Source of the DNA: a virus
Virus record (IMG/VR): IMGVR_UViG_3300032088_000059
Span: 1-26,809 of that record
Reading direction: 5' to 3' (one strand)
Length of the DNA stretch: 26,809 nt
Under the pieces are notes generated by a model. It saw nothing but the letters and a program-made list of their open reading frames with translations. It was not told the DNA's origin and did no database searches. Within the stretch, counting starts at the first letter, position 1. Each line of letters starts with the position of its first letter. Below are positions 18,741 through 26,809 of this stretch, one piece after another. Position numbers and translations under genes: made by a program.

Positions 18741-19915
18741 TATAGTTCTCCTTTTTCGACCATATCAATACGTCGCCCTATCCAATTCATGACAGGAACT
18801 GCCATACTATTGCCTAACGCCTTGTATCTATGGCCATTAGGGCAATCCTCTGGCTCTTTATTCCTCCATGGTATCCTACTAAAGTCATCAGGGAAACCCT
18901 GTAATCTCTCACATTCTTTTGGAGTAAGCCTCCTGACTGTACTGGAACAGACCATTGGCTTGGTTGCTAAGTCCGCGCCTCCCTGTCCATAGCTTGCAGT
19001 AAGAGACATCGTCACATCAGATAAGGTTGTTTCTCCTGTAGCTTTCGAAGCGGCAACTAGATCTGTAGCATCTTTGTCATCCCGTGCTTTGACTGTGCTT
19101 GCCGTTCCGTCATCCGTGTAGTCTCCAAACCCACGCATCCTTGAAGCAACGATAGCATGAACATCGGTTGCCGTTTGACAGGGGGACAGATCAACAAAGG
19201 GTTCTACCTGATTGCCACCGTTCTCTGGCTTACGACCAATCCAATTCCCAGGCAGAGCGTAGGTAACTAACGCTTCGGTTTCTACTCTGGAGTTTCCTGT
19301 GCGACTGAAAGGAGGGCCGACTGTAACTGTGGGGGCAACTCTTTGCCCCGCCTCTCGGCTCGGAGGAGGATTCCCCGACATGCTTTCGGGCTCAAATAAA
19401 ACACTTGCGGCACGTCTCCAGTCTCCAAGATATCCGACAACGAACACACGGCGGCGTCTTTGTGGAACTCCGAAGAATTGTGCGTCCAGCACTCTGTAGG
19501 AGAACCCGTACCCGATTTTCCCCAACGCCCCGAGGAAGGTACCAAAATCCCGTCCTCCGTTGGAGGACAAGACACCGGGGACATTTTCCCAGACAATCCA
19601 CTTGGGCTTAAATTGTTCAGCCATTGCAAGATATGTAAGCATGAGGCTTCCTCTCGGGTCCGAGATTCCTTTTCTAAGTCCGGCGACGCTGTAGGACTGA
19701 CATGGTGTCCCGCCAACAAGAAGCTCAATTGTTCTGTCATTATTCCATTCCTTAAATTTGGTCATGTCTCCATGATTTGGTATGTGTGGATAGTGATGTT
19801 GCAACACGGCACTTGGAAAAGGGTCAACCTCACTGAACCATTGTGGCTCCCAACCCAATGGGTGCCAAGCGGCAGTAGCCGCCTCGATGCCCGAGCATAC
19901 TGATCCATACTTCAT
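18740..19915 (-). CDS. DNA (cytosine-5) methyltransferase
   Basis: The enzyme transfers a methyl group from S-adenosylmethionine to C5 of cytosine in a specific DNA site. All main motifs are present in order: motif I GSVCSGIEAATAAW (residues 4-17), motif IV GGTPCQSYSVAG with catalytic Cys72, motif VI ENVPG with Glu110, motif VIII QRRRRVFVVG (152-161), a variable target-recognition region at about 165-325, motif IX RRLTPKECERLQGFPDDF, and motif X GNSMAVPVM. At 391 residues the length is normal, so it should be active. The start overlaps the polymerase stop as ATGA. No restriction endonuclease is visible, so it is an orphan methyltransferase here, likely protecting phage DNA or altering host marks. 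The recognition site cannot be read from sequence. Confidence 0.93.
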   Translation of the reverse strand: MKYGSVCSGIEAATAAWHPLGWEPQWFSEVDPFPSAVLQHHYPHIPNHGDMTKFKEWNNDRTIELLVGGTPCQSYSVAGLRKGISDPRGSLMLTYLAMAEQFKPKWIVWENVPGVLSSNGGRDFGTFLGALGKIGYGFSYRVLDAQFFGVPQRRRRVFVVGYLGDWRRAASVLFEPESMSGNPPPSREAGQRVAPTVTVGPPFSRTGNSRVETEALVTYALPGNWIGRKPENGGNQVEPFVDLSPCQTATDVHAIVASRMRGFGDYTDDGTASTVKARDDKDATDLVAASKATGETTLSDVTMSLTASYGQGGADLATKPMVCSSTVRRLTPKECERLQGFPDDFSRIPWRNKEPEDCPNGHRYKALGNSMAVPVMNWIGRRIDMVEKGEL

Positions 19916-21822
19916 TCTATTTCTCCCCAGTCATCTTGTATATCCACGTCGATCTTAGACGGAACCTTTAGGTTAACGCCTGTCTCCATGATCTCTTTGA
20001 TCCGATCGCTCTGTTCTGGACTGTCTATGTTGAAACAAAGTTCGTCGTGTACTGTAAGCATAGGAGTAAGTCCCTCCTTGTAGCAATCAAGCATAGCTTT
20101 CTTTGTTTGATCGGCTGCCGATCCTTGGATCAATCTGTTCAACGCCTTGTAGGTAAACGCTCGACGAATACCTGCGCCGTTAACGCCGCCATATTCTTTC
20201 AACGCCTCATCATGTGGTAAAGGTTTGCCTGCACCAAATGTCTTAGGTTCCCAGAGATGAAACCTACACTTACGTCCTAGTAAGGTTCGGATCTGACCAT
20301 TGCTTGCCGCTCTTCTAGAGGCCATCTCAGCCAACGCTTTAACAAACGGAACCTTGTCTCGGTGCTGTTGCAATAATTCCTTGGCTGTATCTGGATCGAC
20401 GTCAATCTGATTGGCTAACTTAGCTACGCCCATGCCGTACATGATCCCAAGGTTCACGGCCTTTGCTTCTTTACGAGTGATGCCCGCTAAGTCCGCAACC
20501 ATCTGGTGTAGGTCTACGTCTGAAGTATTGTATTGATCTACGATGTCCTCGAGTAGATCCTGCCTTGGCATGTCCCCAACACTGGCGGCGAAGTGTACCA
20601 ACAATCTTGGTTCTTGGCTAGAATAATCGAACGATCCCCACTTATATCCATCTTCTGGTATAAACAAACCACGGATCAGTTTCTTGATGTCCTTATCTCT
20701 GGCAGGGATCTGCTGCAGGTTTGGGTTGCTCGAAGAAAATCGCCCCGTGACTGTGCCCCCTTCGTCTCGACGAGTAGAGTGTAGCTCCGTATGGATACGA
20801 CCATTGGTTTCGTGACGTAGTATACTGTCGATAAACGTACTGTCGGCCTTATCAAACTCACGGAGTTTAACTAAGTCCTGACACACCTTGGATGGATGGC
20901 TACTGAGATAGCCCTTGTTAAACGAGGGCGCTCCCTTGTCGGTTCTCGGGTACTCTAGTCCCAACTTATCAAACATCTTAGCTATGGACGCTGACGCCCA
21001 TATGTCTACGTCTCCGCCTGCTTGCTTCTCTATTCCTCGGCGTAGTTCATTTGCTTTGCCGCGGATTAATTTCTTGTTCTTGCTTGCTTTGTCGAGGTCA
21101 ACACGCACACCATTACTTCGCATGTCTAGCATGCAAGGTATCAGATCAGTTTCTATGTTCCAGATTTCCCATAGCTGTTCTTCTTCTAGCTTAACCTTTA
21201 GGAACTGCCAGAGTTTTAGTGTGGCTACAGCATCTCGCTCGGCGTAGGCTCCCACATACATCGGAGGTAACTGCCACATTTCTGCTTTGGGATCTATGCC
21301 CCATGCTTTGGCGGCGGCCTTCAACATCTTCTCGTCTTTACGAATGCCTGCGTAGTCTCTAGCCATAGCATCTAGGCCAAACGACCAACGGTTCTCGTCA
21401 ACCAACGCGCCTGTAATCATGGTGTCAATGATACGACCTTTGATCTCGACGCCCTCGGCTCTCATCCAACCCGCATCGTAAGTTGCGTTGTGCATAATCA
21501 CCTTCATCTCAGGTACAGACATCTGTTTCTTTAACCACTTCAGTGCAAACTTAGGGTCCAGGTTGTGTCCGTTCTCATGTCTGATAGGAAAGTATCCTTT
21601 GTATTCTCCCGCAGCTACAGCAATGCCTATGATGTGCCCATCTTTTCGCGCCCATCCTGGTCCAAGGTTCTTAATGTTTGGGTCTTTGGTTTCTAAATCC
21701 ACAGCAACTTCGCTGTAACCAGTGAGATCAGGGAACTCTGGCGGGATGTTCCAGTCGGAATCAATCATATCCATCTCACCTTTAAACTGATGATGCAGAT
21801 CGCTACCAAACAACGTACTCAT
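19912..21822 (-). CDS. polA: Family A DNA polymerase with 3'-5' exonuclease
   Basis: This is the replicative polymerase of the phage. With the start at 21822 it has 636 residues. The exonuclease domain shows DLET (Asp42, Glu44), NATYDAGW (Asn112, Asp116) and YAERD (Tyr193, Asp197). The polymerase domain shows TGRFSSSNPNLQQIP, motif A FDYSSQEPRL (Asp399, Glu404), motif B RKEAKAVNLGIMYGMG (Arg450, Lys454, Tyr462) and motif C LTVHDELCF (Asp593, Glu594). Leu458 replaces the Phe762 of E. coli Pol I. There is no 5'-3' exonuclease domain. An in-frame ATG at 21861 would add 13 residues; I prefer 21822 because it forms an ATGA overlap with the 35-aa ORF and has AGG eight bases upstream, as at other junctions of the operon. 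Confidence 0.93.
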   Translation of the reverse strand: MSTLFGSDLHHQFKGEMDMIDSDWNIPPEFPDLTGYSEVAVDLETKDPNIKNLGPGWARKDGHIIGIAVAAGEYKGYFPIRHENGHNLDPKFALKWLKKQMSVPEMKVIMHNATYDAGWMRAEGVEIKGRIIDTMITGALVDENRWSFGLDAMARDYAGIRKDEKMLKAAAKAWGIDPKAEMWQLPPMYVGAYAERDAVATLKLWQFLKVKLEEEQLWEIWNIETDLIPCMLDMRSNGVRVDLDKASKNKKLIRGKANELRRGIEKQAGGDVDIWASASIAKMFDKLGLEYPRTDKGAPSFNKGYLSSHPSKVCQDLVKLREFDKADSTFIDSILRHETNGRIHTELHSTRRDEGGTVTGRFSSSNPNLQQIPARDKDIKKLIRGLFIPEDGYKWGSFDYSSQEPRLLVHFAASVGDMPRQDLLEDIVDQYNTSDVDLHQMVADLAGITRKEAKAVNLGIMYGMGVAKLANQIDVDPDTAKELLQQHRDKVPFVKALAEMASRRAASNGQIRTLLGRKCRFHLWEPKTFGAGKPLPHDEALKEYGGVNGAGIRRAFTYKALNRLIQGSAADQTKKAMLDCYKEGLTPMLTVHDELCFNIDSPEQSDRIKEIMETGVNLKVPSKIDVDIQDDWGEIE

Positions 21823-21926
21823 TTCTTGAGCCTGAGTTTCTTCAGTAGTTTCTTGAACCATTTGCTATTGCGAATGTCCTGTTCCATCTGTCCTAGCATC
21901 TCTGCCAAACGATCTATCTCTCTCAT
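21819..21926 (-). CDS. 35-aa cationic mini-protein coupled to polymerase
   Basis: A short reading frame fills the space between the DUF6378-like gene and the polymerase. It translates to MREIDRLAEMLGQMEQDIRN followed by SKWFKKLLKKLRLKK. Its ATG overlaps the upstream stop as ATGA, with AAAGGA about eight bases before the ATG, and its TGA overlaps the polymerase ATG at 21822 as ATGA. The C-terminal 14 residues hold eight Lys/Arg spaced as an amphipathic helix. It could act in DNA or membrane binding, or serve mainly as a leader that feeds ribosomes to the polymerase gene. It overlaps a possible longer polymerase N-terminus (from 21861), so the two readings compete. The function is unknown. Confidence 0.55.
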   Translation of the reverse strand: MREIDRLAEMLGQMEQDIRNSKWFKKLLKKLRLKK

Positions 21927-22225
21927 GATCTAATTCCTTTTTCTGCTCGTTCAGAGAACTCTCCTCCCAACGCAGTGTACCCTGCTTTGTCGATCCATGA
22001 ATCCTGGTGGTCTATAGTTTCCAGTAACCTAGAAGTTTTCAACCAGTCCATCATCAGTACGACATGTTGTTCAGTGACCTCACCATGACTTAGTATAGCA
22101 CCACGGACAATTATATTCCAACCCTCGGCTATACGACTGTGATTATCAAACGCATCCCCGTAATCCTTGGCTCTCTGTCCACTGATTAATTCCTTGGCGG
22201 TGTCTAAGATTTCTGTACGTTTCAT
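21923..22225 (-). CDS. DUF6378-like small phage protein (100 aa)
   Basis: The sequence KDYGDAFDNHSRIAEGWNII (residues 20-39) is the hallmark of a small phage family that I remember as DUF6378. The remainder (VLMMDWLKTSRLLETIDHQD and then SWIDKAGYTALGG) also fits that family. Its biochemical role is not known; a helical all-alpha fold and acidic residues recall MazG-type nucleotide pyrophosphohydrolases, but the catalytic motif is not clear and this is only a comparison. The start overlaps the helicase stop and its stop overlaps the mini-ORF, both as ATGA. Its position among replication genes suggests a role in nucleotide or DNA metabolism. Confidence 0.75.
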   Translation of the reverse strand: MKRTEILDTAKELISGQRAKDYGDAFDNHSRIAEGWNIIVRGAILSHGEVTEQHVVLMMDWLKTSRLLETIDHQDSWIDKAGYTALGGEFSERAEKGIRS

Positions 22226-23751
22226 AATGTATACCTGTATTTGTTATCGGATTGTAATATGTATAGTCGTCGTCGGGCTCTTGTTATCCCAACATAGAAT
22301 GCTCGATGCTCGTCTTCTGGGAACAGTGTTTCATAGCATGCCTTAGTGGACGCTGTGTACACCACGCAGTTGTCATCTTCTCCACCTTTCATAGCATGGA
22401 ATGTGGACAACTTAATCCTTGGCGCAGACAGAAGCCCCTCGCCCCTTCGTTCTATAGCCTCGATATAATTTCTCTCAGACGTACTGACCTTCAATACATC
22501 ATACGCAGAACTCTCTGCTCCACATAACAGACCAAGATCGTTCTGAAGTTGAGCCATACCTATCAAAGCCTCGGGATCTAACGCATCCAGTAGCTTGGAC
22601 GACGCTCGTTTAAGCTTGGCATCCTTACCTTGTTTAGGCAGGGCAGAGTACAGCTGCCGAATCCGTTCTAAACCCACGGACTTATCCTGACATAGATCGT
22701 TCCATGTTAAGATGTTGCCCACCAATTTGTCTGAGATACTAGGATATCCACGGACAGAATACTTGAACCCTGACTTACGAAACCATTTAGCTAGCTCTAT
22801 TACATAGAAGTTTGTTCGACACATCACTGTCCACGTTCCTTCTTGGAAGGGAATGGAGTCCAGATGATAAGTGTATTCAACCATGCCCTCCTCTTCACGA
22901 GGCTCGAACTCTTTCTCTAAACGGCCACCTATCCTTTCGGATATAACACTAGCCAAACGATGTACTGATCTAGGTATACGATAGGATTGTGTGAGACGCT
23001 CGACGTTGTCAGAAGATTTGATAAACAAATCAACATCAACACCCGTCCATCTGTGAACAGCCTGGTCATCATCTCCTGCAATAATTACTCTTCCTGCTTT
23101 GGAAGCTATGAACTTAGCCATCTCCCACTGGAGCGGTGTGAAATCCTGGGCTTCGTCTATGAACAGATAGTCTAAGCTCGGTGGATCGCCTACATCAATG
23201 TACTTCTCTATCATATCTACGAAGTCATACTTGCCCATTGCAGATTTGTATTCGCTCAGTTGTTGGCTCAACTGCAACAGCTTCGGGTAGAACAGTTCTC
23301 TGTTTGCCGCATGGTTGAACTCTTCTTCCAGATTAACCATTCTGTATCGAGCTCGATGCTCTAACTGTAGATACTGTGATCCAGATCCTCCGATGGTAGG
23401 TAACTGAACACCATCATCGATACTTGTCTTGTCATCTCCCTCAAAGTTAAGACCAAGATCCGATCCAACAACAGCATAGTCCTCGGCACTCATAACATCT
23501 TGCCGCTGTAATCCTAATCCATTGAACCCAAACGAATGACTGGTTCTCATGTAAGGAAAATCCTTGGGGGTTAGGTTGAACTCAGCACAAGCTCGAGACA
23601 CCATCTCCTCAATAGCCTTTCGGGTAAACGAGATCACACCAATACGAGAAGGATGCACCCCAGAATCTAAGGCGCTCTTGATCTCCTGTATCAACCGATA
23701 AGTTTTACCACAACCAGGAGGACCCAGTATAAGTAGAGAGTTATCGATCAT
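22222..23751 (-). CDS. UvrD/Rep-family SF1 DNA helicase
   Basis: The protein unwinds DNA with ATP, probably at the phage fork or in recombination. Visible motifs in its 509 residues are Walker A GPPGCGKT (10-17), motif Ia GVISFTRKAIEEM (38-50), Walker B LFIDEAQD (196-203), motif III AGDDDQAVHRWTG (225-237), motif IV-like LTQSYRIPRSV (253-263), motif V LSTFHAMKGGEDD (448-460) and motif VI FYVGITRARRRLYI (485-498). The length is shorter than UvrD (about 720), with reduced accessory subdomains, which is common in phage versions. It overlaps the upstream HTH gene and the downstream DUF6378-like gene, both as ATGA. No hexameric replicative helicase appears in this window, so this may be the main helicase or an accessory one. 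Confidence 0.92.
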   Translation of the reverse strand: MIDNSLLILGPPGCGKTYRLIQEIKSALDSGVHPSRIGVISFTRKAIEEMVSRACAEFNLTPKDFPYMRTSHSFGFNGLGLQRQDVMSAEDYAVVGSDLGLNFEGDDKTSIDDGVQLPTIGGSGSQYLQLEHRARYRMVNLEEEFNHAANRELFYPKLLQLSQQLSEYKSAMGKYDFVDMIEKYIDVGDPPSLDYLFIDEAQDFTPLQWEMAKFIASKAGRVIIAGDDDQAVHRWTGVDVDLFIKSSDNVERLTQSYRIPRSVHRLASVISERIGGRLEKEFEPREEEGMVEYTYHLDSIPFQEGTWTVMCRTNFYVIELAKWFRKSGFKYSVRGYPSISDKLVGNILTWNDLCQDKSVGLERIRQLYSALPKQGKDAKLKRASSKLLDALDPEALIGMAQLQNDLGLLCGAESSAYDVLKVSTSERNYIEAIERRGEGLLSAPRIKLSTFHAMKGGEDDNCVVYTASTKACYETLFPEDEHRAFYVGITRARRRLYILQSDNKYRYTL

Positions 23752-23963
23752 AGATCCTTGCCCCTCGGTCTAGAGTTTACCCAGTCCTCGATCTCTGTCA
23801 GAACCCAACGGCTTGACGATCTCTTACTGTGCTCATCTCCTAGAACTATTGGCTGCGGAAAGTCTGTCTTCTGAGCAACCAACTTATAGATGTAGGACTT
23901 GGATACCCCTAGCATCTGAGCTACTTCTCCTACGCGCAGTAGTCTATTAGAATGGGATGTCAT
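23748..23963 (-). CDS. AlpA-like helix-turn-helix DNA-binding protein (71 aa)
   Basis: The sequence LLRVGEVAQMLGVSKSYIYK (residues 8-27) is an AlpA/MerR-type winged helix-turn-helix, followed by DFPQPIVLG and RWVLTEIEDWVNSR, the usual AlpA wing and final helix. AlpA-type proteins act as transcription regulators or recombination directionality (excisionase) factors. Here the gene sits inside the replication operon, overlapping the end of the primase by 17 bases and the helicase start by four (ATGA). No integrase is visible, so a role in excision cannot be supported from this window; control of early transcription or origin binding are alternatives. Confidence 0.88.
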   Translation of the reverse strand: MTSHSNRLLRVGEVAQMLGVSKSYIYKLVAQKTDFPQPIVLGDEHSKRSSSRWVLTEIEDWVNSRPRGKDL

Positions 23964-25470
23964 TGTTCATCTCCCTTACTGATAATTCTATTTCTTCTTG
24001 TTCGAAGGCGGGTATTTGCCAACACCTAATGTTCGTTCTTTTGCCGTCGGACTTATGGATGTTAACTTTTGTGTTATCCCCACCCATATCACGGATCATC
24101 TGGATTAGGTGTCCTCTGTTGTCCACCTTAAATCTTCGGTGATGCAGATACTCGATTAAACCCTCAAGCTTAAACTTTGTGACTCCGTCATCTGTCCATG
24201 GCTTATTCATTTCCATCTCCTCGGGAGCCATCGCTCGAATGTGGCTCGTGCAATAAGATTTAAGATGCTCCTTAAACTGTCCCTTGACTGTGGCTTCTTC
24301 TGGGACTTCAAGCACAGTGGCGTCTTGCATCAACTGGTTAATCATCTGCTGCCACTTCTGTGGCTTAACTGTCGGAGGCATGATGTTCATCTGCTCCATG
24401 CATGCTCGTTGCCAAAGCACTTGGTTCTGCAATTGCTCTGTTGAAATCTGTATGCGTGACCCATCAACATCCATGAAGTATACTCTAGGTTCGGATAACA
24501 TGATAGTTAGTCCGCCAACACTAGGCATGTCAGGGGATTCATTACCTATCCCATGCTTACGACTAGCGCACAGCGTAGGATCACAGTAACTTTTGAAAGG
24601 TTCTTCTTTACATTTGTACGCCCAATCCTTCTTGTCCAGGGATTTACCTAGGTTGATTACTTCGTGAGAAGGTAACGGCTCAGTACACAGTGTTCGATTG
24701 AACTCTTCTAGCTTGCTCTTCCAGTTATCAGGTTCAGATAACTTAGCGTAGATCCCGCACTGATACATGCAAGTATTACGTGGTGTATCGATAGGACCAT
24801 CCGCAAACAAATGCTCAAGGCAGGGCGGACCATCGGTGAAATACTTACGTTTGCCAGAGAAGCGCAGACCTTCAAGCTCGGACTCTGTTACACGGATCTC
24901 TTCGACCGCATCGAGGAACTCGTCTAGTTCTAATGCTTCACACTTAGCATTGAATGCGTAGCGTTGTGGCATCTCAGCATTGAAGTAAGGCATGTTAATA
25001 AAGTTACCCACATCTCCACGCTCTGCAATAATAGTATCTTGTTTCGGAAAAATCTCACACCCACTGAACCCTAGAGCTATAGACATCTCAGTCAGGTAGT
25101 CTCGGATGTTAGCTGCAGGAACCCAGTCTTTCAAGAATAGATAGAGGTGAGCTCCACCTGATTTAGATCGGCAGTGCATCAACGGAAGCTTTAGCTTCTG
25201 GATCTTTGCCTGTAGTTCATTGTGGTTTAAATCGTAGACGTCAATGTCCAACGCCGCAAACTTGCATACATTCTCTTCGTTGATCGGGATTGCGCCCACG
25301 CCCTGCTTACCATCGATATGGTCCTGGACTAAGTCAACAGTCAGAGGAGATCTTATGATCATGCTCTTGGATTCTGCTTTTCCATTTCGCCCTATGCGTC
25401 CGACAGTTGTCGTACCATGGGCTGATTTTGCTCCGATGAAAACGGAGAGTAGTCGTTCTGCCTGTGTCAT
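23947..25470 (-). CDS. Archaeo-eukaryotic-type primase (TOTE primase-like) with Cys-rich middle and SSB-like tail
   Basis: This 507-aa protein probably makes primers for the phage polymerase. The AEP catalytic signs are FAALDIDVYD (Asp75, Asp77), CRSKSGGAHLYLFL (Ser104 to His108) and CEIFPKQD followed by GNFINMPYF (residues 138-163), an arrangement I associate with the primase domain of TOTE conflict systems. Residues 215-305 hold seven Cys (217, 234, 238, 262, 287, 296, 301), suggesting a zinc or iron-sulphur site. The C-terminal 200 residues look like a helical regulatory or DNA-binding part, with WQIPAFEQEEIELSV near the end. The last residues are NNDIPF, like the tip of bacterial SSB. AGGAG lies six bases before the start. 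A hairpin terminator precedes the gene by only a few bases. Confidence 0.85.
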   Translation of the reverse strand: MTQAERLLSVFIGAKSAHGTTTVGRIGRNGKAESKSMIIRSPLTVDLVQDHIDGKQGVGAIPINEENVCKFAALDIDVYDLNHNELQAKIQKLKLPLMHCRSKSGGAHLYLFLKDWVPAANIRDYLTEMSIALGFSGCEIFPKQDTIIAERGDVGNFINMPYFNAEMPQRYAFNAKCEALELDEFLDAVEEIRVTESELEGLRFSGKRKYFTDGPPCLEHLFADGPIDTPRNTCMYQCGIYAKLSEPDNWKSKLEEFNRTLCTEPLPSHEVINLGKSLDKKDWAYKCKEEPFKSYCDPTLCASRKHGIGNESPDMPSVGGLTIMLSEPRVYFMDVDGSRIQISTEQLQNQVLWQRACMEQMNIMPPTVKPQKWQQMINQLMQDATVLEVPEEATVKGQFKEHLKSYCTSHIRAMAPEEMEMNKPWTDDGVTKFKLEGLIEYLHHRRFKVDNRGHLIQMIRDMGGDNTKVNIHKSDGKRTNIRCWQIPAFEQEEIELSVREMNNDIPF

Positions 25471-25532: not shown

Positions 25533-26327
25533 TTAAAACGGGATACTGTCATCCTGTTCAACAGATGAAGAGGTTGGCACACTCTCCTCTGCTACAGCCT
25601 TCGCTTCGCCTGCCGCGACAGAGTCACGGAAAGCTTTTGCCTCGAGCATTAGGTCACGTTCACCAACTAATCCCACCTTCTCAACGGATGGATTGAACCA
25701 TGAACCCTGGTCATTGCTTTCTTCAACAGTAGTAATCTTCCACTCTGTTGCAAACAATGGAGGCGTAATCATCTGCCCAGTCTTTGGGTGTTTGATCTTC
25801 TGCATTGCAATCTGTGTCTTCCACCGACGGCTGACCTTCAACTGCGTTGACTTCATGTCGATCACAGCAGGTTGGAATGATCCTTCGCCATCCAACACCA
25901 AGCAATAGTGTTGATCAGATTTAACCAGTTCATTACCAGTCGGCAACAGTTCCTTGGAACCCTGACGTGTCGTCTGTTGTAGAACAGGATTGGTTGGAGA
26001 TATCTCTCCGCGGAAACCACCACCCATATCACGAGGTGTAAACTCTAGATACTTTGTTACTTGATAGCATGGAATAATAGTGACGCCTTCTTCACCCTTC
26101 CATACCTGACCAGTCACAGTGTTGAACAAATCTCCTTGCTCCGCACCATCAATATACTCAGGTTTCTTTTTGTTTAGTTGTGGTGACAGAGCCTGTAACG
26201 CACGGATGAATGGGATCTGCATCTCATCAGCACCAAACGCGGCACCCTCTCCTGCAAACTCTAGGATATCATCCATCAAGTCTGTGCTTAACTCTGCATT
26301 TTTTTTCGTTGCTACTTCATTAGCCAT
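25533..26327 (-). CDS. Putative single-stranded DNA-binding protein with SSB-type acidic tip (264 aa)
   Basis: Residues 37-104 (QIPFIRALQALSPQ to MGGGF) and the segment DMKSTQLKVSRRWKTQI (158-174) resemble a phage family often annotated as ssDNA-binding or recombination-associated proteins. The last 15 residues are acidic and unstructured, SSSVEQDDSIPF, matching the protein-docking tip of bacterial SSB (DDDIPF in E. coli). The central region contains several aromatic residues that could stack on DNA (WKGEE, WKITT, SWFNP). The likely role is coating ssDNA during replication and recruiting partners through the tip. Its start shares a base with the previous stop (TAATG). It is followed by the terminator, so its transcript would be the most abundant of the operon. 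Family membership is inferred, not searched. Confidence 0.7.
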   Translation of the reverse strand: MANEVATKKNAELSTDLMDDILEFAGEGAAFGADEMQIPFIRALQALSPQLNKKKPEYIDGAEQGDLFNTVTGQVWKGEEGVTIIPCYQVTKYLEFTPRDMGGGFRGEISPTNPVLQQTTRQGSKELLPTGNELVKSDQHYCLVLDGEGSFQPAVIDMKSTQLKVSRRWKTQIAMQKIKHPKTGQMITPPLFATEWKITTVEESNDQGSWFNPSVEKVGLVGERDLMLEAKAFRDSVAAGEAKAVAEESVPTSSSVEQDDSIPF

Positions 26328-26809
26328 TATGCTTTCCTCTTAATTACTGCGGTGTTAGAAATAAATGCCCCGAATAGATCGAGGTCGATAGGCTTGCCAT
26401 CAGTGATGCGCTCTTTAACGAACGCCTTTAATGTGGATGGGTGAACGTGGGTCTTGGTCTTGGGATCAAAACCTTTACTCTGTAGCATGCCAACGACATC
26501 TCCCGCTACATTGTCTTCGCCCTTACCAAAGGACACAGTGATATCGTTCTTGATGATATCATCTAGGCCATTGGTTCTTAACCATGCAAACGCATCGTCT
26601 TTATTAGCGACAGGTATAGAGGCGGCTACGATCATACGACGCTCAACGGACATGCCGTCTACATCTAATCGTTCCACACCCATCTCATCCATTAACGCAG
26701 GGATGTTCTCCACAGAGAGCTTATGCTTCTCTTGCTTCAGTGATTTTAAATGTTGCTCCGCATCGTCGATCTGTTGCTCAACGTTACGAAGGCTTCGAAC
26801 CAGTTGGCT
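26327..26809 (-). CDS. Hypothetical phage protein, 5' end beyond the window (at least 161 codons)
   Basis: The frame stays open to the right edge. A GTG at 26713 would give 128 residues, but the 32 codons before it continue a plausible coiled coil (SQLVRSLRNVEQQIDDAEQH then LKSLKQEKHKLS), so the real start lies outside. The rest contains VENIPALMDEMGVERLDVDG, then SFGKGEDNVAGDVVGMLQSKG and HVHPSTLKAFVKERI. This layout, a coiled coil followed by a small domain ending in VHPSTL and a helical tail, is familiar from phage early regions, but I know no function. It is coupled to the ssDNA-binding-type gene by TAATG, which suggests a replication-linked role. Confidence 0.75.
   Translation of the reverse strand, partial: SQLVRSLRNVEQQIDDAEQHLKSLKQEKHKLSVENIPALMDEMGVERLDVDGMSVERRMIVAASIPVANKDDAFAWLRTNGLDDIIKNDITVSFGKGEDNVAGDVVGMLQSKGFDPKTKTHVHPSTLKAFVKERITDGKPIDLDLFGAFISNTAVIKRKA

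Follow-up and report, generated by a model that had tools for sequence, protein, structure and literature searches.

Two neighboring genes in the replication operon of a marine phage encode proteins that end in almost the same residues, which raises the question of why a primase and the protein encoded upstream of it should share a C-terminal tip and on what these tips might dock. The window analyzed here is a 26,809-nucleotide stretch, positions 1 to 26,809 of the 26.8-kb viral record IMGVR_UViG_3300032088_000059, which is probably a fragment. A sequence-only reading of the window had reported that the primase ends in NNDIPF and the upstream protein in DDSIPF, and translation of the open reading frames (ORFs) confirmed both endings. 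If the two tips dock on a shared partner, they are expected to be conserved beyond their surroundings, to be nearly private to these two proteins, and to stay alike when they depart from IPF.

The Operon and the Two Tip-Bearing Proteins

The operon lies on the minus strand in the order gp33-like (DUF7307), gp34-like (PF23977), AEP primase (PF22548), AlpA-like helix-turn-helix (HTH), UvrD-type helicase, DUF6378, family A polymerase, and C5 methylase. The Pam3 gp33-like protein (26327–26713; PF23984, E 7e-22) is a conserved neighbor of gp34 and carries no IPF-type tip; its true start may lie upstream of the annotated one. The next gene (25533–26327) encodes a 264-aa member of the Pam3_Gp34 family (PF23977, E 5e-67, 226.7 bits with a cut-off of 27), referred to here as gp34, which also matches phrog_2402, a family of unknown function. 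Its acidic, probably disordered tail reads EQDDSIPF at the C-terminus, and the codons for D-D-S-I-P-F occupy positions 25536–25553.

The AlphaFold2 model of gp34 had a pLDDT of 88, with a low-confidence tail from about residue 241 (tail pLDDT 54–62). Its structural neighbors were mostly OB folds, including those of BRCA2 (Z 6.9), T4 gp32 (Z 6.8), and RB69 gp32 (Z 6.7), the last two over 153–160 residues, followed by many SSBs. The likeness to gp32 and other OB-fold ssDNA-binding proteins is structural and without a sequence match, with Z values too low to distinguish relatedness from a common arrangement; the Foldseek matches were likewise weak (E 0.01 at best), and the best SSB-type Z was 6.8. 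No solved structure matching gp34 by sequence was found. The model therefore suggests an OB-fold ssDNA-binding-type protein, with ssDNA binding predicted from the fold. The top structural neighbor was the phiC31 recombination directionality factor gp3 (Z 8.9), which is said to have a role in phage replication too (PMC5311408). As a sequence relative of gp34 this protein was rejected: the hhalign probability was 0.2%, it has no tip, and it belongs to another Pfam family.

The primase gene (23947–25470) encodes 507 aa ending in EMNNDIPF, with the codons for N-N-D-I-P-F at 23950–23967. It matched PF22548 (AEP-TOTE; E 9e-15, 55.3 bits with a cut-off of 27) and phrog_21866, annotated as "primase" (E 7e-97). 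The catalytic DxD and sxH motifs (D75, D77, S104, and H108) did not vary in sets of 13 and 56 sequences, and by profile and catalytic motifs the protein is an AEP (Prim-Pol) enzyme. In the model (pLDDT 87 overall), residues 1–204 matched the CRISPR-associated Prim-Pol CAPP (Z 21.2, 186 residues, rmsd 2.5), residues from about 395 to 490 matched winged-helix chains (Z 5–7), and the tail, residues 488–507, had no secondary structure (pLDDT about 61–66). The AEP domain is thus common to the phage primase and to the CAPP (Marinitoga) and TOTE primases (profile match E 1.6e-14); unlike these, the phage enzyme is encoded in a replication operon and has its own C-terminal half, with a winged-helix-like domain and the tip. 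Between the Prim-Pol and C-terminal domains, four cysteines (217, 287, 296, and 301) were invariant in 56 diverse primases and likely form a zinc or iron-sulphur site.

Tips in the Window Clade and the Overlap with the AlpA-Like Gene

Primase relatives were collected from IMG/VR viral contigs with six internal search patterns, none of which contained the tip. For gp34, one of the six search patterns contained the tip, and the loci found via the primase gave the same picture. Among the distinct primase tails, 55/60 ended in IPF and 4/60 in VPF (59/60 together), and 52/53 distinct gp34 tails ended in IPF. In 59 aligned distinct primase tails, P and F were conserved at 100% and D and I at 93%, compared with 39–58% for the three preceding residues; in 51 distinct gp34 tails, I, P, and F were conserved at 98% each, compared with 20–63% identity in the preceding spacer, which also contained indels. 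Both proteins have a flexible acidic tail with a terminal aromatic residue, the gp34 tail being strongly acidic and the primase tail less so. A tip of the DDDIPF type (DDSIPF and NNDIPF here) is conserved in the window clade only.

We then compared the tips with other ORFs of 13 phage genomes or large fragments, where 15 of 800 ORFs of at least 80 aa ended in xP[F/Y]. Eleven of the 15 were primases or gp34s, three were a small SSB-like protein, and one was unrelated. The occurrence of one tip on two proteins of an operon, which had been considered unusual, is therefore upheld, as the tip is nearly private to the primase and gp34 in each genome.

The primase gene ends within the AlpA-like gene (23748–23963; 71 aa; Phage_AlpA PF05930, E 3e-11), whose product starts MTSHSN and whose ATG lies inside the primase gene, so that positions 23947–23963 are read in two frames. 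This agrees exactly with the earlier statement that the tip codons fall in a 17-base overlap and encode MTSHS in the other frame. The start codon was located 17 bases ahead of where the primase stop codon ends in 146/150 clade loci, and among distinct windows it was ATG in 62/63 and GTG in 1/63. The primase tip could in principle be a by-product of this overlap, and the Phe codon, TTC in 63/63 windows compared with 47% TTC elsewhere in these genes, implies that the AlpA frame constrains it; from the codons, Ser5 of the AlpA-like protein seems to be constrained too. Against such an origin, the Ile position is encoded by ATC or ATA (with Val in four of the 63 windows) and the Pro codon takes all four forms, and these changes are silent or conservative in the primase while they alter AlpA residues 3 (S/Y/F) and 4 (H/P/R/L). 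Because codons that are silent for the primase alter the AlpA-like protein, the tip is under selection in the primase frame, and the other frame constrains it to some extent. Tips were also found in clades without the 17-base overlap, which is a feature of the window clade and not the cause of the tip. The codon analysis contradicts the overlap as the origin of the tip, and we regard this explanation as extremely unlikely.

Tips in Distant Relatives and Their Covariation

Distant relatives (roughly 24–39% identity) were obtained from named phages, from viral contigs found via further primase queries, and from prokaryote assemblies; no viral contig matched the primase of the Providencia phage Kokobel2. 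The primase and gp34 of the window clade paired DIPF with DxIPF (141 pairs), those of the HTVC027P clade ENIV with QDIV (57), those of the DSL-LC04 clade RSPF with APF, TPF, or IPF (76), and those of the 023Pt clade SKTPYQxENF with DSTPY (56). Single Pelagibacteraceae loci paired TDII with KSII (L638), PETPY with SEAPY (L628), and EEAPY with KQPY (L603), while KSEF was found with SGEF in Acinetobacter SH-Ab 15497 and KAEF with HSEF in Kokobel2. Mismatched pairs were also present: SEF with DM or EM in PSA28, PMBT28, and VLCpiS6a, SEF with DEY in JeffCo, and many in clade F. In Nanhaivirus and the HTVC023P clade, gp34 keeps its tip and the primase has no hydrophobic tip. In the HTVC023P clade (L516–L595), the 3' end of the primase gene shares about 35 bases with the start of the helicase gene, and the primase has a conserved HTGKFRT end without a tip. 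A hydrophobic gp34 tip is also kept in PB1-like and other phages in whose replication region gp34 was the only protein observed to carry it. Conservation of the terminal tip among aligned homologues, which had been proposed as a check, therefore holds within the window clade and is not a universal rule, and the description of the tip as SSB-like does not extend beyond that clade: the endings NIV, SPF, KSEF, TPYQxENF, and APY, among others, occur on primases of this family, and two clades lack the tip.

The presence of a tip is solid. A terminal F or Y was present on 46 primases and 51 gp34s from 65 primase clusters (71–78%), compared with 7% in the background of 800 ORFs. Between clades the two tips clearly covary; the evidence that they change together is nevertheless suggestive and becomes borderline once relatedness is controlled. 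The last two residues were identical within pairs in 35% of clusters and in 14.5% after shuffling (0/5000), in a permutation with no correction for relatedness. Conditioned on patristic distance, a partial Mantel test gave r 0.34 (0/2000), with control positions near 0; partial Mantel tests are liberal. In 53 independent sister pairs, the last two residues differed in both proteins in 20, in only one in 14, and in neither in 19 (Fisher p 0.0007), and shuffling within distance strata reached this result in 306/5000 (p about 0.06). A within-versus-swap test gave 14 to 4 for the tips and 26 to 12 for an upstream control stretch, so the tips performed no better than the control. The simple permutation was accordingly rejected as proof of covariation.

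These borderline sister-pair results, the equally strong upstream control in the swap test, and the many mismatched pairs suit an explanation without any common partner, in which each protein independently maintains an acidic-hydrophobic C-terminus of a generic kind that serves autoinhibition, solubility, or stability, and the likeness reflects shared ancestry and a similar composition. We consider this improbable, since it leaves unexplained a terminal F or Y in 71–78% of clusters compared with 7% in the background, the sharing of uncommon tips (IV with IV and II with II), and the near-zero controls of the partial Mantel test.

The resemblance to the C-terminal tip of bacterial SSB (DDDIPF) allows another explanation, namely that the IPF tips imitate it and bring PriA, RecQ, DnaG, HolC, and other host proteins that bind SSB to the phage DNA. 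The clade consensus DxIPF matches the SSB consensus and likewise forms the very end of a flexible C-terminal tail. AEP-helicase fusions in alphaproteobacterial assemblies, with no gp34 nearby, end in DExIPF, DEDLPF, or DDDVPF, which also fits such mimicry. However, gp34 and the primase are not PF00436 proteins, and the same genes in other clades end in NIV, SPF, SEF, TPY, and others. Pelagibacterales host SSBs end in DDDIPF or DDEIPF, whereas the tips of pelagiphage HTVC027P and of phage loci in Pelagibacterales genomes are PY (TPY, APY), II, or IV (DIV). A PF00436 SSB was matched neither in the window nor in any of 27 related phage records. Six phage records contain a separate small SSB-like protein, ending in DDDIPF or DDDLPF in the five that were read, and gp34 in all six ends otherwise (SEF, GEF, DEY, NDM, EEFA, and DEM); the primase tips of such phages differ as well. 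The Pelagibacterales SSB tips and the phages with a separate DDDIPF protein rule out host-SSB mimicry as a general explanation, and we judge it quite improbable as the reason for the IPF tips. A host SSB partner, which had been offered as one possible docking protein, is disfavored on the same grounds.

The small SSB-like proteins are 99–127 aa long (L422:11877–12176, W05:C1:2578–2904, and W04:C1:17673–17990), and the one tested had no Pfam or NCBIfam match. The AEP-helicase fusions noted above (L636, L641, L651, L655, and L657) end in DEDIPF, DEDLPF, DEIPF, or DDDVPF, and no gp34 relative was found within about 8 kb of them.

Candidate Docking Partners

The retention of tips in relatives despite changes in their letters suggests that both proteins dock on a common replication protein, which is likely phage-made. 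In the proposed mechanism, gp34 would be an OB-fold ssDNA-binding-type protein of the phage that carries a flexible acidic tail, and the flexible primase tail would present a tip of the same kind, acidic residues followed by a hydrophobic end (IPF in the window clade). A replication protein encoded by the phage would receive both tips, in a single pocket or in equivalent ones, and the docking would hold primer synthesis beside gp34-coated ssDNA. The family A DNA polymerase (19912–21861; PF00476, E 8e-59) and the UvrD/Rep-type helicase (22222–23751; PF00580, E 4e-25) of the same operon are the most plausible candidates and the constant neighbors: the polymerase was present in 18/18 phage records of the first relative set, each with an AEP primase, and the helicase gene comes after the primase gene in most relatives. 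A search for a further tip-bearing phage protein that might serve as a hub returned only a few short unrelated ORFs in genomes of clades A, B, and D and one unrelated 149-aa ORF ending in KPY in clade C.

The closest working parallel is phage T7, where the acidic, flexible tails of both gp2.5 (SSB) and gp4 (primase-helicase) contact the family A polymerase gp5. Phage SSBs have an acidic C-terminal tail, and that of gp2.5 has been implicated in contacts with the polymerase and the primase-helicase (PMC5686142); the C-terminal tails of gp4 act on gp5 (PMC8472574, PMC8835902), and the terminal Phe of gp2.5 is described as essential with T7 polymerase (Ghosh 2009, as cited in PMC9917605). Unlike in T7, the phage primase is a separate AEP enzyme, gp34 was not retrieved as a gp2.5 relative, and docking is here a prediction.

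The idea that one protein binds both tips was thus retained in part. Their conservation, near-private occurrence, and joint resemblance in the clades (DIPF/DxIPF, ENIV/QDIV, RSPF/APF, SKTPYQxENF/DSTPY, TDII/KSII, PETPY/SEAPY, and KSEF/SGEF) fit a common partner, and the mismatched pairs, the clades without a primase tip, the phages in which gp34 alone was seen to have such a tip, and the borderline stratified covariation speak against it. Docking of the gp34 and primase tips on a common phage replication protein is in our analysis the best explanation, and we give it an even chance of being correct.

The data are accounted for almost as well if gp34 itself is the docking site of the primase tip. 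An SSB can accommodate its acidic tail in its own DNA-binding cleft; a primase tip in the gp34 cleft would recruit the enzyme to gp34-coated ssDNA, and the two tips would be alike through this common cleft. Such docking would account for the restriction of the tip to these two proteins and for the way their tips track each other. In crystals, the C-termini of Enc34 ORF6, DUF2815 proteins, and T7 gp2.5 lie on neighboring molecules, and removal of the tail alters DNA binding (PMC5686142), in line with docking on gp34. Self-docking was nevertheless absent from the gp34 model, a weak indication at a tail pLDDT of 54–62, and gp34 tips remain where the primase has none. We consider docking on gp34 unlikely, though more plausible than the mimicry or generic-tail explanations.

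Docking on a common phage protein would make these tips a variation on the docking tails of phage SSBs, with a candidate partner, as the data suggest, and offers a prediction of what keeps a stand-alone AEP primase at the phage replication fork. More tentatively, the matched tip might be a lineage-specific docking code of phages with a separate AEP primase, distinct from host and extra phage SSB tips, in which both members of the pair drift from IPF to IV, SPF, TPY, or EF together with a phage-encoded receptor. If so, the clades would supply docking codes that vary naturally and could be used to test the specificity of replisomes. No description of the gp34/AEP-primase tip was found in open-licence papers. 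Pam3_Gp34/phrog_2402, a large unexplained family with 504 phage records matched in one search, now has a hypothesis for its function.

The UvrD-type helicases have a different ending. The helicase of the window ends in YTL, and the endings YIL, YQL, YQI, and FRL occur among those of L158, L159, L160, and L169; the aromatic residue two positions before the final L or I is possibly a tail motif of their own.
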